A stretch of 64,000 bases of DNA from Sclerodactyla briareus. Its lineage: Eukaryota > Echinodermata > Holothuroidea > Dendrochirotida > Sclerodactylidae. Both the position numbers and the translations under genes were made by a program. Numbering within the stretch: position 1 is the first letter of the stretch; every line of letters starts with the position of its first letter. This document shows positions 2,371 through 61,040 of the stretch, one piece after another. A model generated the notes under the pieces. It was not told the DNA's origin and did no database searches. It saw only the letters and a program-made list of their open reading frames with translations. The DNA lies in NCBI GenBank assembly GCA_026419785.1, contig JAODTK010005778.1, forward strand, positions 291,899-355,898, in the 5' to 3' direction.

Positions 2371-3480
2371 AACAGGCCAAATTAGGCTATCGTGGTCATG
2401 GGTGTAAAGCATGTAGAGCAAATATCCTACGTGAGTCGATCCCCGCTTTCATACAGTATTATCCGCTCACAACCCACTTCCCCATCAGTTGTATTTCGAA
2501 GAGGCAAAACCAGGCGAATAATGGACGGTGCCGTTTACAGTGAGCGTCATGCCTTATCGCAATAGTCCAAGATGCTCTTCACAAGTGCATTTTGTTTTCT
2601 AGCTAATCAAGTCGAAAGTATTCAAATGAATCGGTTTCAGTTATCATTCATTCATGAAAACGGAAATAACAAACACATTATATTATGTGTAAATAAATAT
2701 TGAAGCAGTTGATTTGGCAAAAATACATGTCATCTGGCTTTCAAGAATGAAATAAATATGCTGGGTATTTCAGGCCTATTTGGTCATTGGTTCTAACTGT
2801 ATACACAAAAAATACTAGCCTCACAGCAGTGGATTGTGGGAGAGATGTGTTCTGTTGAAGTGCATTGTGGGATAGATATGTTAAAACGTTGTACATACTT
2901 TTGTTTACGCATAGTATAGGATAATGTCTTCTCATTCTTTTCCTGATGCTCTCTGAAGCGTCTGAAGTTGTCATGAAGACGTTTGTTTTTAAGTTCGCTA
3001 CTAATATTCAAAATATAACAGAGTGGAAATTCATGTACATGTGATGTCTGCCTATATACCTGTATGGGGCCTTTCTAATGTTTTCCAAACTTGTCTTAGC
3101 TCATCAGAAAATAAAATCATCCCTTATGAAGCACGCCTCAATTTATTTGCGATTTGGTCTTTGGAGACGGTCTCCGGTACATCGACGAATTTTCCTTTGA
3201 CATGTACATCGGGACGGGGCCGTGTCAATATCGAATTGCACTGGAACGATTTTTGGGGTCATGCCAGGCGCGTCCCCCCGTGGGTACGCCACTGGTTCAT
3301 GCACAGTCGCCTACGCTTTTTCGCCGGTTGCTAGCAGACGATTATGCAGTCTCTTAGCTGTGGGATGCTGATTACGTTATGGTTCGTCGATTCTTAACAC
3401 AGCGTCGAGGTCCTGGGTGTACCGTGGCTAATTGCAATAATTGCCTGCACTATCAGAGTCATGCCGCATCACGCTCCCGC
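2371..3480. other. Unannotated stretch left of the satellite
   Basis: There are only short ORFs of about 70-100 codons with no recognisable domain. Around 2832-2880 the words GATTGTGGGAGAGATGTGTT and CATTGTGGGATAGATATGTT repeat at about 40-bp spacing, suggesting a small local duplication. Nothing else is supported. Confidence 0.4.
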
Positions 3481-6400: not shown

Positions 6401-6573
6401 GCAGACATTCCGCACCTATTGAATAATAGCCTAATAACTGCAGATATTCAGCATCCCTCCCCCTATGAATAATAGCCTAATAACTGCAGATATCAGCACC
6501 TATGGAATAATAGCCTAATAACTGCAGATATTCAACAACCTATTGAATCATAGCCTAATAACTGCAGATAGTC
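3481..6573 (+). repeat. 39-bp satellite array, about 80 units
   Basis: The consensus unit is about 39 bp: TATTCCGCACCTATTGAATC followed by ATAGCCTAATAACTGCAGA. It repeats continuously with no spacers, so it is not a CRISPR array. Each intact unit has one CTGCAG palindrome. Many units lack one or two bases, typically in CCTATTG (CCTATG), GCACC (GCC), AACTGCAG (AACGCAG) or GAATC (GATC). The array frays at both ends, for example a unit containing CATCCCTCCCCC near 6450. Variant units recur in the same local order (CTATGGAACC at about 3631, 4431, 5157, 5881 and 6298), pointing to higher-order repeats. Because 39 is a multiple of 3, the consensus has one stop-free frame on each strand. The single-base losses could be real or could be uncorrected long-read error. 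Confidence 0.97.
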
Positions 6574-6784
6574 CTCTCCGGAAAGGAAGACGGGGTCAAG
6601 ACGGGTTATCTGGTTATCAGAACTAACGCTGAACCCCTCGTTTGCAGAAATGGCGTTGTTCACATAGGTTTGCACATCCCAAGGAGATGATCTCTCCATG
6701 CATACCTCAATACTGGATACATGTCGTTAATATTAGGCAAGAAAATCAGTGGTATAATCCAATAAAGTCTATAACTGCCCCAAT
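6574..6784. other. Unannotated spacer between satellite and R2b
   Basis: This is unique-looking sequence immediately right of the array, starting GTCCTCTCCGG. No similarity to the left flank of the array was seen. Confidence 0.4.
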
Positions 6785-7228
6785 CAGTATTTAGTACCGC
6801 CGTAAGCTCAAAAGGGTCGTATAAAGCCGACACACACTTGACTTGCTCGAAAAGCGCCGTGATTTCGTAATAATTTCAAGCCCGTAGGCGGGAATTTACC
6901 TCTTGCACACCGACCAGTGCTCCTTACAGACAGGCCTTATAAGTTACGAGATAATTTGCAGGCACTAACACCGTGATCGGACCAGCTGATACCAGGAAAC
7001 CCAATATCCCCTTCACGGTGCCCGTTCCCTATTGAGAGTTATGCCCTGTCACGTAAAGTGATCTTAGTGTTTTCAAGCTTTACTAGTCGATCTCGCGTGC
7101 ATGTATATAGAAATTAACCTATCGCCACGTAAGGAAAAGCTGTCGGGAGGGCCATCATTTTCGCATGAACGGCGGTTTCGCTGCCGAGATCGCACATATA
7201 AGCATCACCAGATCACAGTTATATTGAA
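6785..7228 (+). repeat. Dispersed repeat R2, copy b (right of the satellite)
   Basis: This is the partner of 1850-2325, in the same orientation. Best-preserved blocks are AAAAGCGCCGTGATTTCG, CCCGTAGGCGGGAATTTACC, GAGATAATTTGCAGGC and CAGGAAACCCAATATCCCC. It contains no open frame comparable to the ORF of copy a, which argues that neither copy encodes a maintained protein. Confidence 0.6.
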
Positions 7229-18000: not shown

Positions 18001-20805
18001 CTGCAGCTGGAACGGATTTCCTCGCTAAAAAAAACGTCGTTATTAATCCGTGCTGGGAGTGGCGAATAGTGTCGGCATAAACTGATAATTACGGCAATTA
18101 CCGCGCGAGGGATGAACACGCTACCGTAGAATCAAACAGTGTTTTACACTCGGCGAGAGTGCAACTGCCAACATTAGTCCGTCTCCTTGCGACGACTAGC
18201 GACATTTTCTCTATGCGGGTGCGGCGAGAAAAGGAAAATTCCACAGTGGTTTTCTGAACTGCGGAATTTGTATAAGGCCTAAATCCTATTCATGTTTTAT
18301 TATCTTATCAATGAATATAAGCGACAAAGACCTGACAGAAGTCTGTTTAGTAGTCAATAGGCGATAATTGTCTACTATTAGTGGAATAGAAGATATGAAT
18401 TCCTAATAGATACGAACCAACTCGGAAAATATCCGCGTTATGAGGACAATTTCACTTTTCAATTCCTATTTGCTGATTCGATTGCTCGTTGTCCTGACGG
18501 GGATGTGTTTCAATAATCTGCCACTCACTGATGACGGAACCCGTCCGTACGGTATTTGGAATGGTAATTTATATCTTGTGTATTATTCAACGCAGAAAAA
18601 GTAAACACTTTTACTGGTACGTCTTATTATTCCGTCCGCCTCCCTCAAATCCTACAGTTCGGACTTTCCCGTTTCCTGCGTAGGAGTCTAGCATGTTCTC
18701 AGGAGGACCATGTGAACACACTATTCTCGCCTTGTTCATTCAAATACGTCAGTCAGTTTTATTTTTTATTTAGAACGATCACTTTATCACAAAATGCATT
18801 AACGATAACCGTATGAATTCGTGCGCGTTAAGTGAGAAAATTTCGGGTGCAGCGCTGCGCTGCTTGCGCCCATTTGAATTCTCTGTGCGATTTTCGGTGG
18901 AATTACCACCTTACAAGACTCCAGAAATGTTATATAATTGTTTGGAGTCGGAATCTCCGTAATTGAGCGGTACTTTGTTCTTTTCTTTGGAAAGCTTTGC
19001 GGTAAACCACGGGGTGGCTGCGCTTGTAAGTGCATGGAATTTGTTTCTGACTCACAAGGAAGAAGTAGAACCCTACTGATTAAAGTTTGTCCGAGAGAGC
19101 CCGGTAACGTGAGGCAACCTTTTTAATTTGGTTGTAAACAACTAATTTTTGGTATATTCACCGAACCAGCCATACTACTTCACGAAGCATTGTTTTGGGA
19201 TCGGCCCCGGACTCTCTCTCTGAAAAAAAAAACGATATTAACAGGTATGCATTGGTTATCAGTGTTTTCGTAACCTCCATGCAGACATGTGATGTTCTTA
19301 GCATACTGCACACCTAATGACAGAGGATATGAGTTAACCCCCTTCGTTTCGCCCACCTGGTTAACTAGTACTGTCCGGCAATCTTCAAATGGTCTTTGAA
19401 ATTTAGGTCGAATTTTATATTTCGCCCACGAAAATACAACCGTGCTCCTTATCTACAATGCAGTGGTGTCCCGACGTGGAATACTGTGTAGACTACTCAT
19501 TGGGGTGAGTCACGAAATCTATTTACAATAATATCTTCTGTCAAATCTTTCCATCTGCTCACTCGATACACATATTTACCCAAGTGAATGGAAACTGAAT
19601 CGCATATAAATAGGGAAACTTCTGTCTCATCATTAGGTCTTAGCCTACCTGGTTTTTTGTTAGCCTATATGGGATGTTCGACTATATTCCCCTAATTTCC
19701 ATGATACCTTTGTTGTGACCCGACTCTCTGCATAATTGACTGCCCTCCATATTTTGACTTTTACACATAAACTTTACATTTAAAATGGTCATTCTTTCAT
19801 CATTCATGTGAATTGAAATCGTCCCATGTATCTCTGAACCAATCGTTTGTTGTTGTGTTGTTTTTTTTGTTTTTTTTACCTCGTTTCCAGTATAACATAC
19901 GAGGATGCATGAGTTGACCCCAGTTAAGACAATTTACGGTCTATGCCACGCGCCCACGTGGCACATTATGTCATGAAGCCTCTTTCACGAACGAAGTTTA
20001 AATGTCCACATGCATGTTACAGGGAATCACACCATATTTCTCTGAACCACAGCGACATTTGAAATAGCCTCAGATTTAACAACCCGAATTTCCGAAGAAA
20101 GGAAAGGGGCCTGCCTCGAAAAACAGGCGTTTGTGGTACGCAGTTTGTCCATTATTTTTTTTTTTTTTTTTACTATTCCGTCTACTGTTACGTCTGTATC
20201 GAGTATCATACCAATCCACCCCGAGTTTCAATAAGTGCCATCCAGAACTTGCCATGTCTCGTATCCATATCAAATGAGGCTGCCTGACTGAGAGGTTCTC
20301 CAAGTATGCTAACTTGCTTATGGAAGCAAAAGCTTGTTCCCGATCTGCTCTTTCAAGACATTTACTATCCCAGTCATATAGTGAATTCTCATTGTCTCCG
20401 AAGTGGTCAGCAATTGTGATAATTTTGGTAGAAATGATTCAGCTTATCAATGCAGGATGCCAAGGTATAGCATTCTTATGTGAACGCAACTATTTGAAGC
20501 ATGGCCAGTCTGTAAGAGACATGTGCTGTTAGACCTGTGAGAACGCCAGATAGCCATCCCGCGGCAGCTGCTATGCTAAATCGATCTAACCCTTCCCAAC
20601 TATACTATCGGAGGTTCATGTGAATATGTCCACGTGCGGACCTGATATATTCTTCCGTATGTCCGGATCATGGACATTAATTTGGGGCTAACCAAAGTAC
20701 AAAAATAGGAACGTTTCGGAAGCATTCGCCGTACAACTCTTGGTCTTGTGTTAAGACGTTGTGACAACCCTGCCCGATGTGCGTTTTCCTTACTGTGTAA
20801 CTCTA
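15031..20805. other. Long unannotated region
   Basis: In 5.8 kb I find no ORF above 100 codons and no clear repeat partner. Small features are a G15 run at 15766-15780, T-rich runs near 15375-15395 and 19859-19878, and a T17 run at 20155-20171. The part 17080-18260 is richer in CpG and less repetitive by eye than its surroundings (CGAACCGCTCGAAACGG, GACGACTAGCGACA), so it is the best place here for an unrecognised exon or regulatory element, but nothing specific supports either. Confidence 0.35.
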
Positions 20806-21204
20806 CGGTCTAGGATTCCATAGATGCGTATGAGTACGTGAAAAATCGCCAATTTACGTGAACAGAGCGGGGACTAGTGTTAAATGTTCTATTTGGTTTG
20901 CAAAGATGGATAATGGTTCCACAGAAGCCAACAATTCATAAATGAAGGCAACCCAACGCCGAATAATCGAACTAAGCACATGTACCAATGCATATGCGGA
21001 TGCGTATCACTGCGAATGAATTTGTGGAATATCTTCCTTAAAAGCAAACAACGACAATATGCACGGGCTGCGCCTTTTTATGGTCTTTCGCAACACTTAT
21101 AGGTTTTCTCTATGAAACCACGTTCGTTTTCGTAATATGGGATTTTCACATCGAGCTCTCTTTTTTTTTTAGGATAAGCATACGCATCTATGGAATCCCA
21201 GCCT
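20806..21204 (+). mobile_element. AAGG-TIR element (MITE-like), copy 2, about 399 bp
   Basis: A perfect 20-bp inverted repeat, GGATTCCATAGATGCGTATG, lies at 20813-20832 and, inverted, at 21179-21198, just inside termini GGTC/AGGCT. Internally it is collinear with 39827-40214. Shared blocks are AAAATCGCCAA/GGAATCGCCAA, TTACGTGAAC, TGTTCTATTT-GTTTG, CGGATGCGTATCAC-GCGAATGAATT, CAACGACAATATG/AAACGACATATG, CTTTCGCA and ACGTTCGT-TTCGTAA. There is no coding capacity, so mobilisation would have to be in trans. No certain target-site duplication was found. Confidence 0.8.
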
Positions 21205-23549
21205 AAGCCTCTTACATTTCTGAGGTGCTCCGCATAACCTGCCGTGTTCACAACCGTAACAATGGAACAGAGAGAGTACACAGCCCCAGACAAATGGAGA
21301 AGACGGTTTATCTCACAGAGTGTGGTGTCAATCAAAGTTCATATTTTTTCTTGCAGCAGAAAGGTAAAATTCACTCAAACGAGTGAGGAATGAAATTAAT
21401 AACCGTCTTAACGCTAGATTATGCAACTCTCTACTCGAGCATGAACAGTTTATTAGGAATTCGCGGATTATAGACCCAAGTTCATAACATACGTATATGA
21501 CGCAGTCTCCGCCATCGAGTCTACCAGCCGACATGCCTAAGTGCGATGTTCACCAGTTATTTAGGGAGCTCGAAAACAGCCATAGGTTGACGGTCCAAAA
21601 AACAAAAAAACGAGGTCAAAGAAATTGAAGGTGAATTAGGTCGCACGACTCTGAGTCCTGAAAAAACGAACATGGTTAATGGCTGAGGAACAAAGCGGGC
21701 ATCATATCCATGCTGATGTCAGGTCACCGAGGTAAAACCGATATGCAACATCTGACGAGATTGATGTCAATTATAACCTTACAAAAGGAGGTTGTGGCTG
21801 TGACATGAAGCATTTCAGGAGGGAGGCTACGACGGTGTACATGAAAGGGCAAAACTAACGATGCAAGGAGGCAACAATACAACAATATAAAACAAAACAA
21901 AATACAGCCTACACCACAATAAAACATTTACACAATGGTACAACACAAAAGCTGATGACGAGGTGCAGGTTGGGGGGGGGGGGGGGCGGGTCATTTTATT
22001 GGGGCCGCGCCCGGACGGTAGATGCTGTCCTGACACCAGACACTTATCCTATAATAACCGTGAAAAAGTCTACATTATGGATAGTTGTCGCATAATGACA
22101 AAATACAATACCGAAAGCATCTGACACGTCCAAAAATCATGGGAGATACCATATCTTCTATCTTGGCTTGTATTAGGTTTCTGAATGTGCATTAAAATAC
22201 GGATATGGGTCACTTTTAAAACATTTGTGTTAATTCAGAAAGGTATTTGATGGTATTGAAATAAGAACTCCGTGTTCTATTAGATTAGCACAGCCATGAA
22301 TATTTCCAAAGAAAAACTGGTTTTACTGTTTCGCCAGGGATGCTTCTCTCAACCTTGGTAAACATTGAACAAATGAATTGATGAACTATAGGATATGTGT
22401 AATACCATTATCGAAAATGCTATTATTGACGGACAAAAATATCAAATGATAATATACGTTTTCTACGTGGTTGACGAAATCTCAAGTCCACTGGATACGT
22501 TGTGGAAGGTTTGGTAGTTCCATTGCGATCTCTTGATAAATAATATCAACCTGGTTCCGATTTATTGGTCATCTATTGTAGTCATTATCAAGGCCGCGCC
22601 TCTGAAATGAATAGTGACACGTGGGTAGCGTGATTCATTCGAGGAGACATGCCTTGTCTAACAGCCACTGCATGCGGGAAAGGGAAAAGCCCTCGGGCTC
22701 TCAATGGGATTCGCCAATTTATGATCTTAAGTCCGGAAGCTCTACTGATTGAGTCTATTCCGTTTACGATGAGCAATGTGACGCCGGCTTGTGGACATGA
22801 TAACCCAACCCGCGACCAGATGGATAAATCAAACATTGTACGTGGGTTCCCCATGATGAGTACGTGAAACGTTGGTTTTGGGGCAGGTCAACGGTCACTG
22901 AGGAACAACAGAAAGAAGTCAAAGGTTAAAAAGTTCATTACACAATACAGGGAGTCTAGAAAACTATGTGGATCACGAAGAGAAGTCCGGATGAGAGATG
23001 ATTGAGCCGACCAAGCTGAAATTAGGTATATGCGACAAAAATCCCTTTCATTCTTGTGGATTGGGGCTCATTTTGTTGAGATTGGGGAAATATATTTTGG
23101 CATTCTAGGCTTGTGAAACGAAAAACTGGCCCCCACATGGGTGGATCAAGCCCCAACCTTGGATGTGTTGTTTCTAGTAGTAGTTGGGGTTACAGTGGCA
23201 TATAAACACCCATGAAAAGGCAACTGCAGTGTTGTTTTAATTCACCTGGTCATGTTAGTTGGTCACAGTATGCTATTTTAGCTAAATATCGCAAACTTCT
23301 GGCATTCTTTCAGAATTAGCTTCTCCTTTTTGAAGAAAGAAAACACCCAGAATATGCCCTTTTTTTAAACCAAAATTATGACATCTTCCAGGCATTTTGA
23401 AATGTTACCTATTAATCTCTTTTCAAATTTCAAGCCTCTCATTTTTCCAAAAGCAGTTGATAAAATTGCTAATCATTACCATGAAATATGTTAATAATGT
23501 AGAGTACCACGTATTAGTAGACTGTATTAGGCGCTCAACAGTAGAGGGG
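21205..23549. other. Unannotated stretch with a poly-G tract
   Basis: A G15 run occupies 21972-21986. No ORF above 100 codons is present and no repeat partner was recognised. A loose inverted pair GATTGGGGCT (about 23062) / AGCCCCAACC (about 23149) is too short to call an element. Confidence 0.35.
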
Positions 23550-23586: not shown

Positions 23587-25542
23587 ACATTTTTACTCTT
23601 CACTCACGCGACCTTTTCCATATGAGGGTAATAGGCCAAACAGAGATACAGAATTTTATTGCGTATCAGTTGATTAAAGCATTTACGAGGTCACAACACG
23701 AAATCCTTCCAACAAAAACCCCCCAAAGAATTGAGGCCATTTTTGGTTTTGCCGTATGCCTTTGGTGTCCCCATGACCAATTAAATTGTGATATTTTGCT
23801 GACAGGTTAGAACGAGTTTCTTTTACATATTGTTCTACCATTTCTGAGTGGTTTTTTTGGAAGCGACCAATTGAATGGCAATTCACCACAACCAGTTACA
23901 AACATATATTCCACTACTTTTGAAATTCAAAATATGCTGTGATAACACTTTGGTGTCACATCTTACACGTGGAATTGTCACTTCCTAGTCCCTACCAAAA
24001 TAATCACAAAAAATGTATTATTGGGCAATCAGCTCAATTTGATTGCAAGGTGCCACAAAATGAATGGATGATATCCATAATAGTATACTAATACACATAC
24101 ACAGAGAACTGCAGTAAAAATGTTATGTTCCACGGTAAAGGACACCTGGTGTCCCGGCTGTGTCTTTTACACCTCAACTACTCAGTTGATAGGCTTCGGA
24201 CTACAATTTTCACTTCTTTCACACCTCTTCGCTAGGCAGCCAGAGATATTTCTGCCAGAGGTTCCCAAAAGGGGTGCAGATGCGCTAGAAATATGTGAAA
24301 TAATTAGTGTGCCACTGACTTCATGTCGGGATCTTCCTGAGCTGACGCGCACCAAGTGTGCTCTTGCTAAATGGGAGCTCCAGATGCGTCAATTTCAATC
24401 AAAATATTGCAATAACTTAAATTTGGAATGGAAAAAAAGGAATTAACAGGGCTACGGTATATGAACGATATATCCTATGAAAGTTTTGAAATTAAATTGA
24501 AATGAATTCATCTTAGCCGCCGTATGTTAAGCGGTTTCACATATTCAATCGAAGAGGCACCATTAGTTGCGCGTAGCGTAGCGAAATTTTCGAAATTCTC
24601 AAAGGGGACTTCTCGAGGACTTCTCAAATGCCAAATGGTGATCTCCAGAGTGGTTTTCATGTGATAATCCAAACATAAACTTGAAGCATTGGTATGATTT
24701 CGCACCTTAGCCACTCTATTTTATTGCCGATTCAAGGCTATCCAGGCGACGCAGCACCATGACTATATAGTCTACTTTTGGATTTCGCGAATACCTTGTA
24801 ATATGACAAAATTTTATGACACCGCTGATCTGGAATTAGTGGGCGACTAGACCAACAAGGTTTGGAACAAGTGAAATCGTGAATTCATCCGTCCTTCAAT
24901 GACGCGACTGTTTTGGCACATGTCGGTCCAAAAAATCGTCAGTGAAAAATTGGTACATCGAATACAATCTTCAACATTAACAGCCAAGGTCTCTAAGATA
25001 AAATAACTATAAGTGCAGATCATTCTACAGTTCTACAGCCCTTCCATTTCACTAGAAATAAATGTCCGTCCATGTGGCATGCAAACCGATCGGGTCCAAT
25101 CGTGGAGGAATATATCAGACAAGAAAAACAAGCAATTCTTCAAGCACGCTGCTTTATCATTAGTACGCATGCGCGTACTCGGATACTGCGCACGAATCCA
25201 CACACCTGAAGCTGGTGAATGTTTTAAAAAAAAAATCCAGTAAAGCACATAGGATCACCAGGTTGCAAGATTCACGGGAGGTAGTTGGACTTGACTCGTA
25301 ACATTCACAATAACATTGCCACGGGGCCTAACAATATAGATGCACATACGTCATTGAGGATGAAATCACTGTCCAGCATACGGTACATGTGTTCATCTGT
25401 AATGAGATTGGGGGGCCAAGCGGGGTAAGTGAACCTATAGAGTGGAACTTAAGCGTCTGCTCTCCCTTCCCCTCCCCATCGCGTTCCATCATTTTTGCTA
25501 CGGTATAAGGGCACGGACGCCCGAGACCCACTTCAAGCACGG
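23587..25542. other. Unannotated stretch
   Basis: The plus-strand frame 24120-24446 (108 codons) has relatively protein-like composition but no domain I recognise and no splice context that I can defend. Nothing else is supported. Confidence 0.35.
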
Positions 25543-25575
25543 AGCTTATATATTATATAAACTGGAGAGGACATG

Positions 25576-26111
25576 AAGGTAGGGTTCAATAAGTGCAGGG
25601 TTGCAGGGTGCGGTAGGAATGCAAAACTCGAATTGTGGCGTTGATATCGGAGCGAATGAAGCCAAATACACCTGATATTGATGTCGACTACCGATACAGA
25701 CTACAGAAATGCAGCAGCTCCGGAATACGGCCGTTCATTGGTCATGGTGAAGAGTATCACATACATCCCATACCAAATGTTGGTTACAAATACCCTGTGC
25801 ATTTGTTTTAACCACCATGGGTAAAACAGTTACTCAAACGGGGTTACATACTAAACTGGGTAGAACAATTGACCAGGTGGTATTGTAACCACATTTTTGA
25901 GTGTAGAAATCCATTCGCGATATGCGCGTCAACGGCCGGCAAGTGCATTGGTAATTTTGCCTACGCGTGTCCGTTCTATTCTATTCGGAATCAATTGCCT
26001 CCAGGGAACCTATCTCCATCGTCGCCAATCGAAAAAACGCATATTAGAACTTTGTTCATGCTCACGGAATTTGACATGTTTTGCGTCATTCCAAACCCGT
26101 AGACGCGCCTT
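25576..26111 (+). mobile_element. AAGG-TIR element (long form), copy 1, itself interrupted
   Basis: The left end AAGGTAGGGTTCAATAAGTG matches the AAGGT-GATTCAT-AGTG left terminus of the element at 40504. The interior is collinear with that copy, for example GGTAATTTTGCCTACGCGTG versus GGTAATTTTGCCTACACGGT and CTATCTCCATCGTCGCCAATCG versus CTATCTCCATCTCTGCGATCG. The right end, near CATTCCAAACC then CGCGCCTTT, is diverged. A smaller MITE sits inside at 25769-25905 and is absent from the 40504 copy. The short ORFs 25869-26175 are part of this non-coding element. Confidence 0.65.
25769..25905. mobile_element. Nested MITE-C, copy 1 (TGGGTAA type)
   Basis: Inverted ends are CCAAATGTTGGTTACAAATACC at the left and, read inverted, ACACTCAAAAATGTGGTTAC then AATACC at the right. 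The interior TTGTTTTAACCACCATGGGT, TTACTCAAACGGGGTTA and ACTGGGTAGAACAA corresponds to MITE-C copy 2 at 50908-51053. Its absence from the collinear position of the 40504 element (empty-site sequence around 40738-40760) shows that it inserted after that element family had spread. Confidence 0.65.
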
Positions 26112-26442
26112 TAGGAATCCATTTTACTGTTTTACGACGCTTATTAAGTGCTGTCAGAGACCACAATTCATTTAAGTGGGATAGTGTGCGTATTGTGTGT
26201 AATATCGTGGAACACATCAGTTCGTTCACTATCTATTGTGGATTTTGTCAGCAATAGCCCGAAGTAGACCTCGTTGTTCAATAGTCTTAGTATTCACTAG
26301 TGTCACAGTGCAAGATCCTGCAGACATCTTAGTTACTCTATTCGTTTCGTTTTAGTGTATTTGTTTTCAGAATGGAGTTCTAACATAACAGAGAGAGTTC
26401 GAAGCCAAAAATGGGGAAGGAAGTGCACTAGAAACTGCTTTT

Positions 26443-29240: not shown

Positions 29241-29940
29241 GTGCGTTGTGGCTATTGCCTTGTCGCGTAAGAGGCATGAAGGGCCCTCCTTTCTCGTACG
29301 AGAATCCTTACGAAATTGCATCATTTGGTATCATGAGCCTCACACGTTCAACGGATTTATCGAGTTACGCTCACTAATCAAAGTTAGCATCAAACATTGA
29401 TTTCCTTTGATGTTGTCAAAACTAAAGGTACTCAGAATGAAACATTATCATCCTAACCCTAAAACAAGATTTTTCCTAAATTCCCGGAAAATTTGTTACT
29501 AATGATGAGGATATATTTCAACAAAATAGTTCAGAGGACGGATTGAAGAAAAAGAGCATGTGCATGTGTGTGATGTCGGAACCCAAGGAAAGTGCGTGTG
29601 GCTATTGCCTGTCGAGTTAAGAGGCATGAAGGCCTACTTTATCTTACGAGAATCCTAGAAATTGCTCATTTGGTATCATGCGCATTCACACGTTCAACTG
29701 ATTTTATCGGTTACGTCACATATCAAATTTGCACACATTGTATGTCCTTGATGTTGTCAAACGAAAAGGTCTCAGAATTGAATCATTATCACTCCATAAC
29801 CCTAAACAATATTTTCCCTAAATTCCCGGAAAATTTGTTACTAGGATAGTGGGGCCTATATTTCAACAAAATGGTTCAGAGGACGGATTGAAGAAAAATG
29901 AGCAGGTGCATGTGTGTGATGTCGGAACCCAACGAAAATG
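29241..29940 (+). repeat. Tandem duplication R5, two units of about 350 bp
   Basis: Unit 1 is 29241-29591 and unit 2 is 29592-29940. They share long blocks, including AAATTCCCGGAAAATTTGTT, GTTCAGAGGACGGATTGAAG, TGCATGTGTGTGATGTCGGA, TTTGGTATCATG and TCACACGTTCAAC. Identity by eye is well above 80%, the highest of the duplications here. The differences are mostly one-base indels. A short 85-codon ORF in unit 2 is not conserved in unit 1, so the repeat is likely non-coding. The unit may be satellite-like elsewhere in the genome. Confidence 0.9.
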
Positions 29941-29950
29941 CGCCCTCATA

Positions 29951-32930: not shown

Positions 32931-35900
32931 TCCAAACAATTTTAGTTGCGCATAGCCACCAGTGCCGAAAATGGACCCCTTGCCATGCGTTGTCGGCTGC
33001 ATGTACCAAGTCTCACACCTGGGCATTTTGTGATTGAAATTCTGTAATCAGTGGGAAATTTGTGTGAAATTTTGTCAGACCTTGTCTTATCGCTGCCCCG
33101 ACTTTACCTTTTTGGCCAGAATGTCAAGAGTTGTGCTGCACACTACTGATCTTTAGTTGCGCGCAAAACGCGCAATTTTTTCGGGTTTCCCCGGCCTGGG
33201 AAAAAAACTGGCGGAGCTCGTATGTCACGCCTTCTCTGACATGCCGGACGCTATTTGTATAATTTAAACAGCGAAAATTACCAAAATTACAGTAGCCTAA
33301 TGTAAATATGCTTGAGGGTCAATTCGACTTATAGCTTTTTCCTAATCTGGAAATCATAACATATAACACAATTGCTGTGGCATACAAATAGCGACCAGCA
33401 AATCACGTTGTTGTAAATTATGCTGTTAATGAAGGGGAGAGTACTGTTATTGCGCGCGAAGCGCGTAAAATTTTCGCTACATATCTGGATAGTGATAAAA
33501 AAAATTACAATCCTTTGTTGTATGAATACTTTTAAATGAAATAAGAATATTCTGTTGGTTGAGTGGAAAATTTACATAGATGACTGGGACGAGGACCTCC
33601 GTCGTAATATATACAATCTGGCGATCCGTCAGAAATTCCACTGGTATCGAAAAATCCAACTGCGAGGTACTCTGACATTTTTCTTGGGGGGGGGGGGGGT
33701 GGACACATCCCCACGCCCCCAGATCGTCCATGTGTGTCGTACGAGAAAACATGGGGTATAATTAATTACTAGCACTGCAGCACATTGCGTCATGCACAGA
33801 GGCAGGCTACATGGATTCCTAGGTCATTTTGCTGCAGGTACATTAAGCAAGATTGGAAATCGGGGAGCCAATAGACGACGCTTCGGTTTTTTTTCATAAG
33901 TAAATTTAATAAGTCAATGTTTTGAGGAGAGTTAGAGTTGAAGTTTACCCATTACCGACGTACTTTTTGGGGGCCAAAGAGAATTGTCGAAGCCCGGAGT
34001 GCTAAAACTAGGGGGTGGTGGCATGTATTCCAGCACCCGATCACAAAAATTGGGGGTGGCAGCACCTCAGCACCAACTCCCCCTTTCCCGTGCTTGAAAC
34101 GAGGGGGGAAAGGCAGGGAACGACCGAAAAAAACCGAGAGAAAAAATGTGAAAAAAATTCGGAGGGATTTGGAGGAGAAAATGACGGCGAACTCTTGGCT
34201 TTGCATGAGGTGACTGATATAGACTGAAAAGTCGCCGGCTACTTTTTGTAAGTGAAATCCATCTAAACCATAGAGCGATCAATTAACTGAGAGGGCATCA
34301 GATCAGAAATTAGAATATTGAGGAACTTGGGAATTCTCAGTGAACAAAAACACATGCAGAACGGACGTGTGTGCTACGCATTATTAGTGACATAATGCAT
34401 AAACGAATGTGTAAGTTCCGTACGGTGGGTCCTCATACTGCCATATGTAACGAGACATTATTGAAGCAGCTGCGCGTCAGCTATATACTCTAACTGGTAC
34501 CTGACAAAGTTATTACGGTATCACAGTAGTGTATGTGCGAAACAACAAAATTATTGGAATTACGACCGATTTCGTCTGGTTTAAAAACATTCTCTAGGTA
34601 AATACAATATCACGGCGAGTAAAAAAAAAACTATGTAATGTGAAGTTCAAATAAAATCACCTATAGCGAACTGCCCATTCAATGGCATCATAAACATATT
34701 GAGGATGAGCGGAGCGCTGTCAGGATCGTACCGAACCGCTCCGCGTGCATGGCTCATTCTGCCAAGACGCTTTATAAAGATGAAGGCGCCAGCATGAAAA
34801 GTGTAGCTATATACTGCAGCGAAAGGCACTGCCACCATTTTGTTATGGGCATCCGAATAGAAACCTGCACATGCGAAAGTATACTTTTGGCAGGTTTCTA
34901 TGAGATTTCCGCTTAATTTAGATAGTCCACACTCTTGTCATATACAATCATCCCCTCACCGGCACGTTCCTACCAAAGCTACCAAATTGTGATACTTGTC
35001 AACACTACAGCCAGTAACGCCTAAATATCAGAATATTGGACCACCCCGAAGGAGGAGAACGGCTTTGCGCTTAGGCCTACCAAACATTTCTCTCGCGGCT
35101 ATCTGCAGTTATGAATTCTTATCTTCAACCTCCACACGAGGATTCAACACGAATGCGATAAAAGGAGTGTGTTATAGGAGTGTAGAAAATAAAGACGACC
35201 ACGACGACTTTTTCAATAAACACCGTCTATCCTATCACCGGGTTTATTAGTGGGCATCGCTGAATAGACTCCGAGATCAAGTATCGCTCACAATTTTAGC
35301 ATCCTATAAAGTACGTGTATGCGCGTGCACAGAGACATGCACACCCAAGTGTTGAGTAGCGATAATCACCAATTAGATCAATCAAAATGAAAATCATATC
35401 AGTAAAACAGATTCCAGAATTAGGATGTTCGGGCCCGTCAAAACGGTGATCTCGTGTCAACAAAGTATTGGTTGGTACACGTCTGTGTGCTTTATGGCTA
35501 GTAAGCCTAATTAACACTCCAAATCAAAGTCAGGCATACAGGCCTACATACACCTTTCTGAACACATTTTCGGACATCATCTTATTTTGGCATGACGCGT
35601 CTAGTAGCAAAAGAGTGTTCGGATAGTGTTCCAATTCTAAAAACTGTTCCCAGAGTGAAATGGCCATTTATTACGTTCAGTTCGTCGAGTAAATGACTCT
35701 GATATATTCGCCCACTGATTAGTAGTTTTCAGACATTTCTCAATTTCTCGATATCTTCTGATCGGCCTTCGCGGACTCTCGGCGAGGATTTCGAGTGAAA
35801 TGAGCTTACGAAAATCGATATTACGCACGTTTAATTATATTGCGTGCACACGAGATTACACTGTACTCAAGTAAGGTTACGGGCAGAATAAAAAATATCA

Positions 35901-39157: not shown

Positions 39158-39826
39158 TCCTCGACCCGAGCGGACAATCGTGTTACGGCGGAAGACAGAA
39201 GTCCGTAATAATTCATCATACTCCCCTCACGGGGATAACGATCCAACCAGCATTCTGCATTCATTACATATCCTGTTGGGGCATGAAGGTGATAACACCT
39301 AATGTGCGTGATTCCTCAAGAGAGCAGAGTTTGTAATGACTGCCCTTCACTTGCCGAACCCTTCCTGTAATCGCGCCTGTATCTATAAATACGAGGTGTC
39401 ATCGCTCCAGCAGCCCTGTCTCTCGGGAAGCAGTGATCCGTGTAATAGCCACGGAGACTGAGCAGTCATAATAGGATGCCGCTCATATGGACACGATTAC
39501 GGTAATGAGACTAAGTCACTGACCCCTTGAGATGACTTAGCGCCAAATCTGACCCGCCCTCCCATCCTCTCCAACAGGGAGCTTGTTTATCATATCCATC
39601 AACGGACTGAACGCCTACCGATATACTATCCGAGGCCATGGTCTTCAACCCTTTCCTGAGTAATAGTCAAAACAATTTCCCCGTTCGGTGTTACAAATAT
39701 GCACAAATTTTTATCAAGATTCAGCATAGCTACTTTTGTTATATTACTTTCACGTGGATATGTCATATTCCGTGTGATTCGCCTGAAGACTACAAGCAAG
39801 CACATTAACTGGCGTACTATATCTCT
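39158..39826. other. Unannotated stretch
   Basis: No ORF or repeat partner recognised. Confidence 0.4.
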
Positions 39827-40214
39827 AAGGCTAGGATTCCACATGTGCGGATGCGTATGTGCGATGGAATCGCCAATTATTTACGTGAACTGAGCGGTGG
39901 CTAGTTTTTTAATATGTTCTATTTAGTTTGTCAAGATAGTATTGGTTTCACGGAAGCCAAAAAATCTAAATGAGAGACAAACCAACGATGGTAGGCGAAA
40001 GGAGACGTTACAATGGCGTATGGGATGAGTATCACCGCGAATGAATTCTATGGAAATCTTCTAAAAGCCAAGAAAACGACATATGATGGCTGCTGCCTTT
40101 TATCGCTTTTCGCATTACACTTATAGTGTATCTCCTGAAACAAACGTTCGTGTTCGTAAATGTGATTTTCACATCCAGCCCGGAGAAGCATACGCATGTG
40201 GTTGATTCCTACGC
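39827..40214 (+). mobile_element. AAGG-TIR element (MITE-like), copy 3, about 388 bp
   Basis: The left end AAGGCTAGGATTCCACATGT, then GCGGATGCGTATG, is matched by the inverted right end CGTAGGAATCAACCACATGC, then GTATGC. Collinear with 20806-21204 over its whole length, including TTACGTGAACTGAGCGG, ATGTTCTATTTAGTTTG, GAGTATCACCGCGAATGAAT and ACGTTCGTGTTCGTAAATGT. At roughly 70-75% identity to that copy, the family is old. Non-coding. It is the first of three related elements within 1.7 kb. Confidence 0.8.
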
Positions 40215-40503
40215 ACAGTATCATCAGGGACGCCAGACATGAGTATGTGCTATGTAATAAGTGCTTTTCAGAAAACAGCATAGTCTGTACGTTGAGCCAG
40301 CCCCGACATGGTCTAGACAGAATCCCGCTTTCGACGTTTTTATGTTATCTCATTGCGATCTCCCCCTAAATTCGATCCCGTGTTCATCTGTTCATGGTGC
40401 AAGTTACATAATGAAACAGGATAGAGGCCCGTAGGTACGTACCGTCTTACAAATGTATTCAGTTTCTCCAGAGGTCCAGGTGCTCAGTTCGCATCGCTGC
40501 CTG
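40215..40503. other. Spacer between two TIR elements
   Basis: Unique-looking sequence; no ORF or repeat recognised. Confidence 0.4.
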
Positions 40504-41010
40504 AAGGTGAGATTCATCAGTGCGGATGCGGGGTGCGGTATGAATGTGAAAAACGAATTGCTATGTCAATAGTGGGAGCTTATATGAGCCAGACTGGCTC
40601 TCTGCTCCGTCGTCCTCCGCCTTTCGACTGATGAGACGTGGAGGATACAGGGAAATACAGGTCAAATGAACGCTATAATGATGCCAAAGACCGTAGAAAT
40701 GAAGCAGATTTATGTATACGGACGTTGATTGGCTTCACGAGAGAAGATATACTATAGGGCCTATAATCCATTTGCGTTACGCGGTATTAACGCTGCATCG
40801 GTACAAGTGGTAATTTTGCCTACACGGTTCTCGTTCCATTCTACTGGGAATAAATTATGTCCCTATGGAAGCTATCTCCATCTCTGCGATCGAATACAGT
40901 ATATGAGAACACTCTCACCGACCATGCTCAAGTGGAAATTTTGCATTTATGGTTATACCGCATCCGCAGTTATACCGCACTCCGCATTCACACTTATGTA
41001 ATCCAACCTT
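40504..41010 (+). mobile_element. AAGG-TIR element (long form), copy 2, about 507 bp
   Basis: The left terminus AAGGTGAGATTCATCAGTGC, then GGATGCGGGGTGCGGTATGA, pairs with the inverted right terminus AAGGTTGGATTACATAAGTG, then TGAATGCGGAGTGCGGTATA. That gives arms of at least 40 bp with few mismatches. The right end also carries an extra internal ATACCGCATCCGCAG block. The interior matches the 25576-26111 element but without the nested MITE, so this copy preserves the empty site. The 90-codon ORF at 40729-41001 lies inside it and reads into the terminal repeat, so it is not a gene. Confidence 0.8.
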
Positions 41011-41263
41011 TACCGCGAACATGAAACGGCTAACACCCAAGAGGCAGGCAGTTGGAGAAAAACATCGGTTGGAGGAAAACGACGGATATATAGGTTACAC
41101 ATATGAGGTTAAAATATAAAAAAAAGCAGAATTGGAAGTAACCCTCATAACGTTTCTCAGGTCAGGCGAGTGTGGCAGTGAGCAAAGGCGGAGTGGATAA
41201 GCGAGGAAGTTTATTACTGACGTATGAATTGCCAATTCGCCCCCATTTGCTGCCGTACTTCTT
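41011..41263. other. Spacer between two TIR elements
   Basis: No ORF or repeat recognised. Confidence 0.4.
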
Positions 41264-41454
41264 GAGGTAGACTTCCATACGTGCGGATGCGAGATGCGTA
41301 TGGATGTAAAAATCGTATTTTACGCTGAGCTGCTGCATTTCTATGGTCACCATTATACAGTTTTTTAACACTTTATTCGCTTCTATATTAACACATCAAT
41401 TCAATTTTCACAATCATACCGCACTCCGAAGTCACACTCATGGAATCCTACCTT
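41264..41454. mobile_element. AAGG-TIR element (short form), about 191 bp
   Basis: The left arm GAGGTAGACTTCCATACGTG, then CGGATGCGAGATGCGTATGG, pairs with the inverted right arm AAGGTAGGATTCCATGAGTG, then TGACTTCGGAGTGCGGTATG. Arms of about 50 bp surround a centre of about 90 bp. It shares the same terminus with the 388-bp and 507-bp neighbours but has a different, much shorter interior, as expected for several MITE subfamilies mobilised by one transposase. Confidence 0.8.
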
Positions 41455-42067
41455 CGGTCTTTTCTTTGAATTGTGTGTTAATTAGATAATAAATAGTGTC
41501 ACATCATGGCGTAGATTCAAACAGGTATATGAATATGTAGTACGGTACTTTTGTGGGTTACAATCAAACGACACGGGTTGGGGGGTCTGGTTTTGAGTGG
41601 GCATTGCTGCACCGGATATTTTGACGTTAGCGCGATAGGTCGAGTATTTAGGTCATCGGATGGAGCGAATCATGCGATTCTTTTTCAAGAGAGGAGCCCC
41701 ATTACAAGAAACCTTGTGATGGTGAGCAGTAGAGTTTTACGAGTACTTCAAAAGCACCACGGGCTGTGGGGCCCCTGGTCGCGGAGATAAGAGTGTATAC
41801 CATGCAAATACATGTCTAGTTGCAAGTTAGAGATACCGCAAGAATTTCCATCCCCGTTCAGCCCAGCTAGCTCTGACAGAGTCGATATTGCTCACGCGGA
41901 TAATGCAAACCAGGGACCTCAGGCATTTCAGGCGGACATTCTAATTCGTTCCTGCCACCTCACCGCTCTTGGGCTAGTTAGGCTACTGGCAGGGGGTACA
42001 TCATACTGCATCATTCTGTGCATCAGCTAGTCATTACTGTGTATCGTGTGGAGATTTTCGTTACAAA
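41455..42067. other. Unannotated stretch
   Basis: Two ORFs of 72-79 codons have no recognisable domain. No repeat found. Confidence 0.4.
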
Positions 42068-45656: not shown

Positions 45657-46127
45657 CCTCGTAAAAAAAATGTCGGAATCTGGAAAAAAAAAGAATGATA
45701 TTGCACGTGTATCTGTCGAAAATGTTTTATTTCGATGACGATGATGAATGTGATTCGCCATGTTTGCCAACGACGTTTCGGCGCCAAGAAAGTTTTCCTT
45801 CTGAATGTCCGATTGCTATAAAAACTTAATTGATAGAAAATAGAATGAAAAAGAGCCTTTCTTTAAGCGCGTGAAACATGCCCTAACATTTTCACATATC
45901 CACTTACACGCTTTTTTTTTCTTGAAAACATTTTTTTTTTTTTTTCATATTGGAAGATGTTTAGTCCTTCAGAAGCAGTATAGCTCGCCGCACGACTAAT
46001 CTTTATTTCTAAATACAGATGGGACGTACTACAATTCCATATATATAATTTGCCCATTAATTATTACATCGAAGTAAGGTTTGAGGAAGAGGCTGTGGTA
46101 TCGGCGCCGCACTTGTATATACCATGG
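45657..46127. other. Unannotated stretch with T-rich runs
   Basis: Contains T-rich homopolymer stretches near 45912-45945 and no recognisable ORF. Confidence 0.4.
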
Positions 46128-46690
46128 AGCTATTATATTGGAGAGGACATTAGAGCACGTATTGTTTGCCCTGTTCAAAGTACCGTCAGAGAACACAAAC
46201 TCAAAGCGAGGAGGCGCGCCCTATTGCGTATACAACGTGGAACACATTGAGTTTGTTTACTCTCTATTTGCGAATTTCTTCTACCATAGACCCCCCAAAA
46301 TACCTTTTTGCTCATAGTAAGATAGTATATTATAGTACAAGATTCTGCAACATCTTCAGTGAGTGTTACCCTGTTTCAGAAAACGCGGGAATTTCAGACG
46401 ATTTAATTTACGGAAGCACAGAAACAACATAGTTAATTCGGAAATACAAATCGATTGCGTCTGACAGAAACACCATCTAGACACAAAGTATAACATCACG
46501 GAGTGAACTAGAGCTTATTATTGTGAAGCTCGAATTAGAGGAGGCCGTCAAACGGAACATATTCTAATCTTCTGACGAAATGCGAATCATGTAGCCCGAA
46601 TCACATGTCACTATTACACTACTACAAGTGAGGGCGCTGTCGCGGATTAGCAGCCACGTTTCCATATTAGACTTATGTTCTGTATAGGAG
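46128..46690 (+). repeat. Dispersed repeat R4, copy a
   Basis: Collinear with 59385-59960 over roughly 560 bp. Blocks include GAGAGGACATT, TGCCCTGTTCAAAGTACCGT, CTTCAGTGAGTGTTACCCTG, CAAATCGATTGCGTCTGACA, GAAACACCATC, AAGTATAACATCACGGAGTG, TCTAATCTTCTGACGAAA and ACTACAAGTGAGGGCGCTGT. Identity by eye is about 75%. The short overlapping ORFs 46050-46432 are not preserved in copy b. Confidence 0.75.
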
Positions 46691-46847
46691 CTTTAGTACA
46701 GCATTTTCGAGGCTTGGTACATACCTGGCAAATGTTCGTGAGGTAATACTCCACGTAAAATAATTGTGACTGGAAACCAGCATAATATAATAGAATGTCG
46801 CATACTCTCAAATCCACATTGTTAACCTTCTTGATAGTCTAGGGAAA
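46691..46847. other. Spacer between R4a and R7c
   Basis: No feature recognised. Confidence 0.4.
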
Positions 46848-50907: not shown

Positions 50908-51053
50908 TCGAAAAAAAAAAAATGTTAGGGCTCAAATACCACTTGAAATTTGTTTTACCCATCTGGGTGAACATTTACTCAAATTGGGTAAAGGATTAGT
51001 CAGAGTGGCGTTGTGAAACAATCTGTTGGTATTGTACCCAACATTTTTAGTGT
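50908..51053. mobile_element. MITE-C, copy 2 (TGGGTAA type), about 146 bp
   Basis: The left end, within an A-run, AAAAATGTTAGGGCTCAAAT, then ACCACTTG, pairs with the inverted right end CACACTAAAAATGTTGGGTA, then CAATACCAA. The interior TTGTTTTACCCATCTGGGTG, TTTACTCAAATTGGGTAAA aligns with the nested copy at 25769-25905. The internal TTACCCA/TGGGTAA words are themselves inverted, so the whole element is strongly self-complementary. Confidence 0.65.
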
Positions 51054-52542
51054 GTGGGGCTCAAATGATATCGAGCAGGGGTTTTTAGGTAGCCATCCCA
51101 AACTGACTCCCGGGATTGCAATTTCACGTCGCCTCCGAAAGGACTATCAGTGCAACTCGACAACTTTCTGGGAACCCGGGGAGCAGACGATTCAAGTTTA
51201 AATGACTGTTCACACCCGACTGACGAGACTTATTGCCAAATAACCCGGCCGTAATAGATCCCATAACCCCCAGAAAAGTCCAAGCATCAATGCGAAACTA
51301 TGGATGAAGACCAAGACCACTCGCCATGATAGTACAGCCACCAAGGGTGAAACGTCCGTCGACTGCTGGAATTCGAACCTTAAAAGAACAGCGCCACCAA
51401 TTTTCGAATGGATATGTCAGTGCTGTTTCTCTTCACAATTGTCGGCGATGGGAGGATAAGTTGGGTCGTTTGGGCAGATTCCTCCAAAAGCACCATTTTT
51501 TGCTCAGATGTCAATAATACCTTAGAATTTGATTTTGACGGGCGACAAGAAAGATCAATTTTAGCTGCTCTATTGAGTGTGAATAAACAATATTATTGAG
51601 GAATTTTAATTGATCGTTGTTGAGATTTCCCCCGCATTCCGAATGTCTAGAGAATTACAAATAACATTCCATGGGGTTTGGAGTCCTAACAAAATGCTAG
51701 AGAGGGTCATGGATGTTACACCGTGTTGAAGAAATGTACAATATTGAACAAGTTGAACGATGAAACTATGTCCGCTTCCGGAAAGATTAACCAAAGTTGA
51801 AAAGGCGAAATCCAACACCATAGGCCTGTTTCGGTTATTAAATGAGCGATATTATGGATGCCATGCACTGTATCGCTAAATTAATAAATTAATAGTATTG
51901 AACAAAATAACACCATCAATGGAAATAAAACTCAAACCAAATTCGCCGGAAATGCCAACAAATATGGGGTGAAAGGGGGTCCAGAAATAAAATAATAGCA
52001 CACACTTTTGAGTTGTAATGGCTACGGTAGCCGTATGGCATCTAAAAACAACCGCCATTTAAAGACGGCTCATCGTCTTGCCAGACTCAGCGAATTATGG
52101 ATGGTGATGTCAATGAAACACGTAGAATCGCCACACGAAGTAGGAGAACTCATTTAAACATTGACATGTGACGGAAATTACACCGTATCAGCTTATCTTC
52201 ATTGTGAGTCATGCGTGTCGCCGTCGCTTTGCCGCCAGTTGCTAACATGCCGACAGTAACTGGTAAGCAATCGACTATTTGCTGACGGTTGAACCTTTGA
52301 CATTGTAGCATGCCTCCTAGTTTCGAGCTGTTGTTAATTCCTTCTCGTCCACCAGAAACCACAGATGCCTATCTGATTCCTGACAGATATTTGATCAAAC
52401 CCCAGCTGATCCTGCATATTTAAAACAAATAAGCAATAACTGGACCCCATTAATTTGAGGTGGTTCCTTTTTCGATTCTCAACGTTTGTTTTATTCTCCC
52501 CGATGATTTGAGTTACATTAGTACTGTAGTTTTTACGGAAAA
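51054..52542. other. Unannotated stretch
   Basis: Short ORFs only; no repeat partner recognised. Confidence 0.4.
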
Positions 52543-58600: not shown

Positions 58601-59384
58601 TGCTGATTGACTCTCTCTTGCGATCAAACTCGATGTGAAATAGGCCCGCGGTAGCTAGGCCAAATTCCCGCCGGTCGTAGGACTAGAGGCGACTAAAGCC
58701 TGAAGGGGGGGGGGGGGGGTCTAATTTTCTTAACTTTCCAGTCAGCTAGTCCTACAGTCTATAGGCTATGCGAGAAACGAAAAAGCCGGTGCAGAGAACG
58801 TTCGAATATTATTTGTGAATGCATGGTGTATAACCTATTTTATCATGCGCCTAGTCTAGCCTACGTTCTAGCCCCATGTTCCTAGACCAAAGTCATAGGT
58901 GTTTGATTTCGTGGCACGAAACATTGACTATAACCTACAATCTTTACATTGTTCAGGCTAGGCTATAGACCATATCGTAATATATAGAGGGCGTTTTCGA
59001 GCAACTGCATCGAAAAGTTAGGCGCGCATCACAGATATCACATCGATGATGCATGTTCACGCAACTAAAGTCGTTGTTACTCAATTCATGCAACAGATGA
59101 GCCAACAGTCCATTGAGTACTGTAAGACACTTCCAAATTCAGCGAAGATGTCTGTGCTGGAAATGGTTAAATTGAAAGTCAAAGAGAGCAAGATCCTCAT
59201 AATGTTTACAGCATATGTTCATTTTCAGTGAGATTGATATTCCAAAGCAAAGCAGTCGTCAAAACATTTTGTTCTCTGACAAATTTGGACATTAGACCTA
59301 GGACCTTATCGCGAATTTACTGTTGCGCCACGCAGTATGGGAAGGATGTGGTCGCTCAGCCCTTGAGCTAATAGGCGTCCTATG
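58601..59384. other. Unannotated stretch with a poly-G tract
   Basis: G15 run at 58705-58719. AGGCTATAG/TAGGCTA words recur between 58740 and 58980. No ORF or repeat partner recognised. Confidence 0.4.
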
Positions 59385-59960
59385 TTACCTGTGAGAGGAC
59401 ATTGAACTGTGCGATGTGTGCCCTGTTAATCAAAGTCCCGTCAGAGGCCACAAACTCGGGGTGAGGGGACGCCCTATTGTGTAGAAACATCGTGTGTGAA
59501 ACACATCTCAGTGAGTACTCTTCTATCTGCGATTTCTTCCTCCCATACCCCCGGACGCACACCTTCATCGTAAAGATAGGCCTAATATGCCATAGTGTAA
59601 GATTCTGGAACCTCTTCAGTGAGTGTTACCCTGTCACAGAATACGCAGGAAAGTCCGACGATCCATTATGGCAGCACAGACACAACATAATAATTCGGGG
59701 AAAAACAAATCGATTGCGTCTGGCAGAAACACCATCAGCCAGCGTAAACTGTGAAGTATAACATCACGGAGTGAGTAGGCCTGAAGCTGATAAATATGCG
59801 CTCCAACTAGAGAGGCTGTCATCAAAACGGAAACATGATCTAATCTTCCGACGAAAAAAAATGCCAATCAATGGTCGCTCAATCACAGTCGCTATAACAT
59901 ACTATAAGTGATAGCGCCTGTCGGGTAACAACACGGTTCCACACTGACTTTGCTCGCAAA
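59385..59960 (+). repeat. Dispersed repeat R4, copy b
   Basis: Partner of 46128-46690 in the same orientation: GAGAGGACATTGAACTGTGC, TGCCCTGTTAATCAAAGTCC, CTCTTCAGTGAGTGTTACCC, CAAATCGATTGCGTCTGGCA, GAAGTATAACATCACGGAGT, and TCTAATCTTCCGACGAAA. It is uninterrupted, so copies a and b show what the interrupted copy c at 25543-26330 looked like before insertion. Confidence 0.75.
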
Positions 59961-61040
59961 GGGGCTCCAGTATGTCGACACACCCTTCAAATTGCGCACC
60001 TGTCCTTACCTAGCCACACTAAATAGTAGCCTAAGTGTAGCCTAACTCCGGAAATCGGAAAATTGTTTTTAGTTTTGGGACTGTTTCCATCGTTCTTTAT
60101 AGTCAAATCGCAATTTTTCCGTAGAAGTTGAGTATCTTCTGCTACATGGTCTGTTATATTACTTCCTGAGAAAAAAGTCTGAATTTAGTGGGCAGGTCCG
60201 ACCCAGTCGAAATGCCTGCAAATTGAGGTGGGATTCAAATAAAATATAGTAGGGGTATCAAAAGCCAACGGTACCTTGAGAGAAACACCCTAAAAACAGT
60301 AAAATCCTGGGCGGGAGGGATATTGAATTTGGGTTGTATTCTCTATGAATTATCCAGCCAAATGACGATAAGGCAGAAAAAATTGCAACAAAATTGTAAA
60401 GAACTGATATTAAACCGAAAAATAGTGTGAAGTCAGTGAATAACTGTGTTTCCAAAGGAGCTATATTAACTGTGCACTCGTTCTTAAAACAGCCCGTTAA
60501 AATTTTAGAAAGGAAACCATTTCATTATCTGTCAATAAATGGGGGTTATTATTAACAAGACATAAAAGTTAACAAATGTAATTGGTTCTGCATAATTTCT
60601 CACACTGTGTCTTGCGTGGCCGCTGGAGTCCGAAAAGTGTTCGACTCAAAGGTACCGGCGTTAACTAAGAATAAACAAAAAGGCTTAGGACTAAGCTGCA
60701 GGAAATTACAAGTTTGTTCATGCCAAAGAGGCTGATACTAACACAAAAATACCGGAAATTATAAAATAGTCATTTCTACATAACCATCTGAAAGTTTTGT
60801 ACTGGGGTGCTTGTTTTTAAATTTAGAGAGCGGCAAATATTGTGCAGGACGCACCCTAAGTGTTCGGCTCATGGTACCACCAGAACTACTGATTTTGTTG
60901 TTCTTCCCCACAGCTCCTGAACTTTCACCGGATATGGCCCGCTTAGGTATCATTTTTAGGCGTGAGGAGGTGCTTCCAAAATGGTTGTATTATTTATTAT
61001 TGGATCAGAGTCATAAAAAGGAAATTATGGCAGTCAGAGT
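59961..61040. other. Unannotated stretch
   Basis: The plus frame 60811-61242 (143 codons) begins here and runs into the tandem duplication. TTTTGTTGTTCTTCCCCACAG, ending near 60912, is a fair acceptor-like sequence, but no exon is otherwise supported. Confidence 0.35.

Follow-up and report, generated by a model that had tools for sequence, protein, structure and literature searches.

The target of PIF/Harbinger elements is typically TWA, and chronologies built on nested insertions count which element sits in which, for which many nests are required. TinT and TRANScendence are described as ordering transposon activity over time (PMC3014933, PMC5657132); the single nest analysed here, in contrast, orders three events only. 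PIF/Harbinger elements are characterised in PMC2213677 by terminal inverted repeats (TIRs) and a 3-bp duplication, and the target of Hermes, a hAT element, is given in PMC2803484 as nTnnnnAn. At 25539-26345 of the window, by which we mean the whole 64,000-bp stretch of Sclerodactyla briareus DNA that was analysed (C3021:291899-355898), an element termed MITE-C lies within an AAGG-TIR element, which lies within a copy of the repeat R4. This nest is real. It is a case of ordinary transposon nesting involving three families of known kinds, and we consider it very probable (about 0.9) that it arose by three successive insertions, of the cut-and-paste type, of non-autonomous DNA transposons.

The genome searched comprised 319,486,128 bases in 3171 contigs, and the alignments of R4, AAGG and MITE-C copies within the window were controlled by 100 shuffles each. 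Three open reading frames (ORFs) of at least 150 aa from a start codon were present in the window, the longest being 241 aa. Comparison of 10 of the 11 longest stop-to-stop frames of the window with Pfam yielded no family above the cut-off and one match below it, and no transposase domain was found by Pfam in ten ORFs of the window. A tRNA scan of the window detected none, the window had no match in Rfam at gathering scores, and exact-pattern scans of viral contigs and genome contigs gave no match. The DNA of the window looks repeat-rich, non-coding and eukaryotic in character.

Anatomy of the nest

The initial annotation had R4 split by an AAGG-TIR element at about 25575/26112, and that element split in turn by MITE-C at 25769-25905. 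Both splits were borne out. The borders of the AAGG-TIR element (c1 in Table 1) moved by a few bases, to 25577-26123 overall, and those of MITE-C are now set at 25773-25903. Target duplications were read off by hand at both levels, as TA on either side of MITE-C and as TGA versus TTA around c1, and the left R4 flank stops at the element border. The first 20 bases of the right R4 piece (from 26124 on) hardly align, and the split R4 ends or turns unrecognisable at about 26330-26345.

Table 1. Coordinates in the window of the parts of the nest and of related copies.
Feature	Position	Strand	Evidence
R4 left end; its last 3 bp are the TGA target copy of AAGG (25574-25576)	25539..25576	+	Score of 48 against genome-copy consensus; profile positions 8-43, 10.7 bits
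AAGG-TIR element c1, left part; its last 2 bp are the TA target copy of MITE-C (25771-25772)	25577..25772	+	TIR profile; AAGG consensus alignment
MITE-C, imperfect palindrome	25773..25903	+	Matches the 50915-51055 copy and 9 other genome copies; TA on both sides
TA (25904-25905) and AAGG-TIR c1 right part, heavily decayed in the right TIR and the final few bases	25904..26123	+	c2 profile; family consensus
TTA (26124-26126, second AAGG target copy), then the right piece of the split R4	26124..26345	+	64.1 bits at 26146-26330; older-group profile
AAGG-TIR c2, without MITE-C, own insert at about 40572-40665	40504..41012	+	Alignment; TIR profile; genome loci
Short AAGG-TIR element c3, both TIRs	41265..41457	.	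TIR alignment/profile
R4a, uninterrupted R4, flanks GTATATAC and GTACATAC (L021 in the flank test)	46125..46710	+	Alignment; profile; flank test
Second MITE-C copy, no TA seen on either side	50915..51055	+	Alignment; profile; genome rows
R4b, uninterrupted R4, 3′ end decayed	59381..59972	+	Alignment; profile

The element copies named in that annotation aligned as it had proposed: c1 with c2 at a score of 177 (100 shuffles, maximum 70), and the two MITE-C copies of the window at 107 (100 shuffles, maximum 43). MITE-C in the nest is a palindromic element of 131 bp, and MITE-C resembles its own reverse complement (E 0.004 and 0.0004). Its occurrence alone, given earlier as 50908-51053, held with borders now at 50915-51055. 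The ends TA-CACTCT...AGAGTG-TA are common to the two window copies and 9 more from the genome; inspection by eye showed a left TA target in 9 of 11 rows and a right one in 9 of the 10 rows having a right end.

Without its MITE-C guest, c1 is 414 bp long. A profile made from c2 as a single copy matched c1 at 25907-26103 (43.9 bits), and the left TIR of c1 scored 40.9 bits with a TIR profile whose training set included that end. The right TIR of c1 is too decayed for this profile, which did not recover it at E values of up to 10. When c1 was aligned to the consensus of 16 other AAGG copies, the alignment extended to GGAATCC of the right TIR; the two ends of c1 itself pair at a score of 28, for which there was no control. 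TIRs were found in copies other than c1, the inverted ends of c2 and c3 comprising about 55 aligned columns. Genome-wide, a first look gave 180 AAGG candidates, and the 40 scored gave 50 matches. Copy c2, previously listed at 40504-41010 as an AAGG-TIR copy without MITE-C, does lack MITE-C, but it is not clean, as it carries the other insert at 40572-40665. This insert is 86–97% identical to five aligned loci on other contigs (L042, L049, L057, L058 and L068). At some of the matching loci, GGTAAATACA-like repeats form a tail, and on visual inspection the insert resembles a retroposon 3′ end that was inserted into c2. Two copies of another AAGG-like subfamily, whose ends are of the GGCTRGGATTCC type, lie at 20799-21208 and 39821-40270 (75.8% identical over 376 columns).

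The split R4 copy

R4a and R4b aligned to each other at a score of 521 (100 shuffles, maximum 64). The two had been recorded as intact at 46128-46690 and 59385-59960; both are indeed uninterrupted, but the 3′ end of R4b is decayed. A complete R4 is about 590 bp long, and its ends across copies read CATGGAGC...GGGGCTTG. A first look at the genome gave 708 R4 candidates, and scoring of 40 yielded 43 matches. A further decayed copy was observed in two pieces within 34263-34772 (about profile positions 3-45 and 281-569), and a short left-end fragment lies on the minus strand at 62606-62679 (24.4 bits with the R4 profile).

The homology of the two flanks of c1 to R4 was uneven. Within the window, the right flank was significant against both R4a (130, maximum 60) and R4b (101, maximum 50), whereas the left flank was not significant against either single copy (R4a, 39, maximum 43; R4b, 33, maximum 45; 100 shuffles in each case). 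We therefore have to weigh a reading in which the left R4 piece matches by chance and the AAGG-TIR element inserted beside R4 rather than into it, with which these scores within the shuffle range of R4a and R4b agree. Against it, the left flank became significant when compared with the consensus of 18 genome R4 copies found through R4b, from which R4a and the split copy were excluded: the score was 48, the maximum of 500 shuffles was 32, and none of the 500 reached the observed score. With the profile of the same 18 copies, the left flank gave 10.7 bits at 25536-25576, over positions 8-43, and the right flank 64.1 bits at 26146-26330, over positions 69-249 of 605; the maximum in 60 shuffled windows was 7.5 bits. 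A profile of an older R4 group gave 113.0 bits at 26146-26329. An earlier profile that included the joined flanks of the split copy was circular for that copy; leave-one-out R4 profiles, which exclude it, gave E values of 0.0009-0.006 for the 82-bp left flank, and when 1570 other tiles were ranked with it, this flank came in the upper part without being at the top, which leaves the chance reading some room. The left piece is, however, collinear with the right piece and begins at the R4 terminus of other copies, and we regard a chance match as very improbable.

The 18-copy profile matches and the consensus score of the left flank thus establish a third, split R4 copy, real but without its 3′ half. 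The third R4 copy of the initial annotation stands in this reduced form, limited to profile positions 8-43 and 69-249 of 605; positions 44-68, which adjoin the right border, were unmatched in the split copy. Extension of the split R4 to about 26437 was weak (score of 31, reached by 4 of 500 shuffles in the comparison with the matching part and by 15 of 500 in that with the rest), and for the stretch following the pyrimidine tract 439 of 500 shuffles reached the score.

Target sites and affinities of the three families

Of 24 copies whose R4 profile hit was full-length, 5 were dropped (end anchors missing or distant), leaving 19 pairs of flanks for comparison. Left and right flanks were identical at 0.82 of positions at exactly 8 bp, versus 0.35 when flanks were mispaired; lengths of 7 and 9 bp showed no rise, and 13 of the 19 pairs agreed at 7 or more of the 8 bases. 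A 9-bp duplication considered previously was dropped, since exact anchoring gave 8 bp. Among the 38 flank sequences, T occupied position 2 in 71% and A position 7 in 53%. R4 resembles non-autonomous hAT elements in its 8-bp target duplication, and the T2/A7 preference resembles the nTnnnnAn given for Hermes (PMC2803484). Both R4 ends start with CA, but there is no clear terminal inverted repeat beyond it: CATGGAGC and, reverse-complemented, CAAGCCCC have by eye just CA and scattered bases in common. The 8-bp flank pattern suggests that R4 is hAT-like; because it shows no evident inverted repeat of the kind that hAT elements should have, we do not file it as a member.

The 3 bp outside 55 AAGG ends read T (0.71), A (0.33) or T (0.35), and A (0.75). 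In 16 automatically paired flanks, identity peaked at 3 bp (0.62 versus 0.49 when mispaired), although only 5 of the 16 pairs were identical; among mispaired ends, identical 3-bp flanks made up 8.75%. AAGG-TIR has inverted ends in common with PIF/Harbinger MITEs; the 3-bp T-N-A pattern beside its ends resembles their target, and it differs from them in the small number of identical flank pairs (5/16). The T-N-A flanks suggest, without proving it, that AAGG-TIR is PIF/Harbinger-like. MITE-C, a short palindromic element with a TA target on both sides, is similar to Tc1/mariner-type MITEs such as Stowaway. Its ends are CACTCT and its superfamily is judged by the flank only, the TA suggesting a Tc1/mariner-like element. 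Transposases of the hAT, PIF/Harbinger and Tc1/mariner superfamilies would presumably have moved the three elements, and the copies in the nest are probably long inactive.

The ends of AAGG-TIR elements also bear on a 39-bp satellite at 3477-6574. A profile of AAGG ends gave 21.3 bits at 3457-3504, on the edge of this array (60 shuffled windows, maximum 9.9), and the satellite unit is similar to the outermost part of the AAGG TIR together with some flanking sequence. Of 9 AAGG ends tested, 3 gave the unit a score above all 300 shuffles and 6 did not; direct alignments of the satellite with AAGG were weak and had no controls, and a profile search at 2800-3450 matched no AAGG interior (E up to 10). 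The origin of satellites from terminal inverted repeats is described in PMC12628747. That the AAGG-TIR family seeded this satellite is a tentative idea, and we think it rather unlikely; such arrays could start from AAGG-type elements that adjoin one another end to end, as they do at several genome sites. By eye, such elements abut or nearly abut, TIR against TIR, at L041, L047, L048, L053, L055 and L019. A direct repeat (1951-2108 and 6849-7012, 73% identical) flanks the satellite on both sides, and a tandem pair of a 346-bp unit lies at 29241-29942 (85% identical).

Order of insertion and divergence of the families

None of the 24 distinct R4 copies aligned over the R4 site into which AAGG-TIR inserted (26 rows, 2 of them repeats) is interrupted at that site, which by eye reads TTA in 14, TCA in 8 and TTG in 2. 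This alignment was made without 5 of 29 loci (L011, L026, L028, L032 and L037), which are absent because their match began later, and an insert-bearing copy would be cut likewise; all of these except L028 have full-length R4 profile hits. The MITE-C site was uninterrupted in each of the 22 AAGG loci scoring at least 50 (30 tested, 8 below 50); one of them reads CCATAGAATCC, compared with CCCATA-[MITE-C]-TAGAAATCC in the nest. A single TA is frequent at this place in AAGG copies without an interruption.

DNA transposons can excise, and the uninterrupted copies carry no direct date, so that the composite could in principle be ancestral, the shorter R4 and AAGG copies having been left by excision of the inner elements; the 5 of 29 R4 loci not aligned over the site leave room for such a history. 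It would, however, have to account for 24 of 24 R4 copies and 22 of 22 AAGG loci being uninterrupted at one and the same place, and each inner element is found elsewhere too. We give this history hardly any credence. Successive insertion in the order R4, AAGG-TIR, MITE-C is supported at this locus by the anatomy, the duplicated targets and the uninterrupted sites. R4 (about 590 bp when complete, with 8-bp target duplications and hAT-like) would already have been at the site. AAGG-TIR (414 bp without its guest, PIF/Harbinger-like) would then have entered a TTA of R4 and duplicated it: the two target copies in the nest are unequal, TGA and TTA, and TTA is the most likely target because the 24 R4 copies uninterrupted there read TTA, TCA or TTG. 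Finally, MITE-C (131 bp, palindromic, Tc1/mariner-like) would have entered a TA of AAGG-TIR, duplicating the TA.

The timeline proposed in the initial annotation thus holds as an order of events at the locus, but not as a timeline of the families. Kimura two-parameter (K2P) distances of the nest layers were 0.213 ± 0.034 for R4, when measured from a young R4 consensus, 0.160 ± 0.022 for AAGG and 0.119 ± 0.033 for MITE-C. We rejected this gradient as proof of the order, since it hinges on the young consensus: the split R4 piece is only 0.117 ± 0.024 from the consensus of an older group, made from 9 of 17 split-like loci hand-picked as divergent. Because the split copy is nearer this older group and the distances overlap, the order in the nest rests on anatomy. 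Places resembling the split copy numbered 18, and the 17 measured had a median distance of 0.216 from the young consensus. Judged by these distances, R4 has at least two groups, one older and one younger, and the split copy is nearer the older.

Mean K2P from the family's own consensus was 0.087 for R4 (n=18), 0.163 for AAGG (n=16) and 0.139 for MITE-C (n=9), in samples that are biased because they are best-hit or hand-picked. A family-wide succession, with R4 active first, AAGG second and MITE-C last, would agree with the order seen at this one locus. It is at odds with the R4 copies found through R4b, which in these best-hit samples diverge less from their own consensus than AAGG and MITE-C copies do from theirs. 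More divergent R4 copies exist besides, and we consider such a succession unlikely. Given the lower mean of R4, the spread of at least some R4 copies seems to postdate the start of the nest.

For the three repeat families, the analysis supplies ends and target lengths. The locus serves as a worked example in which targets and uninterrupted sites are readable for two insertion steps, and it illustrates a usual trap in reading such structures: one nest ranks three events, not three families.
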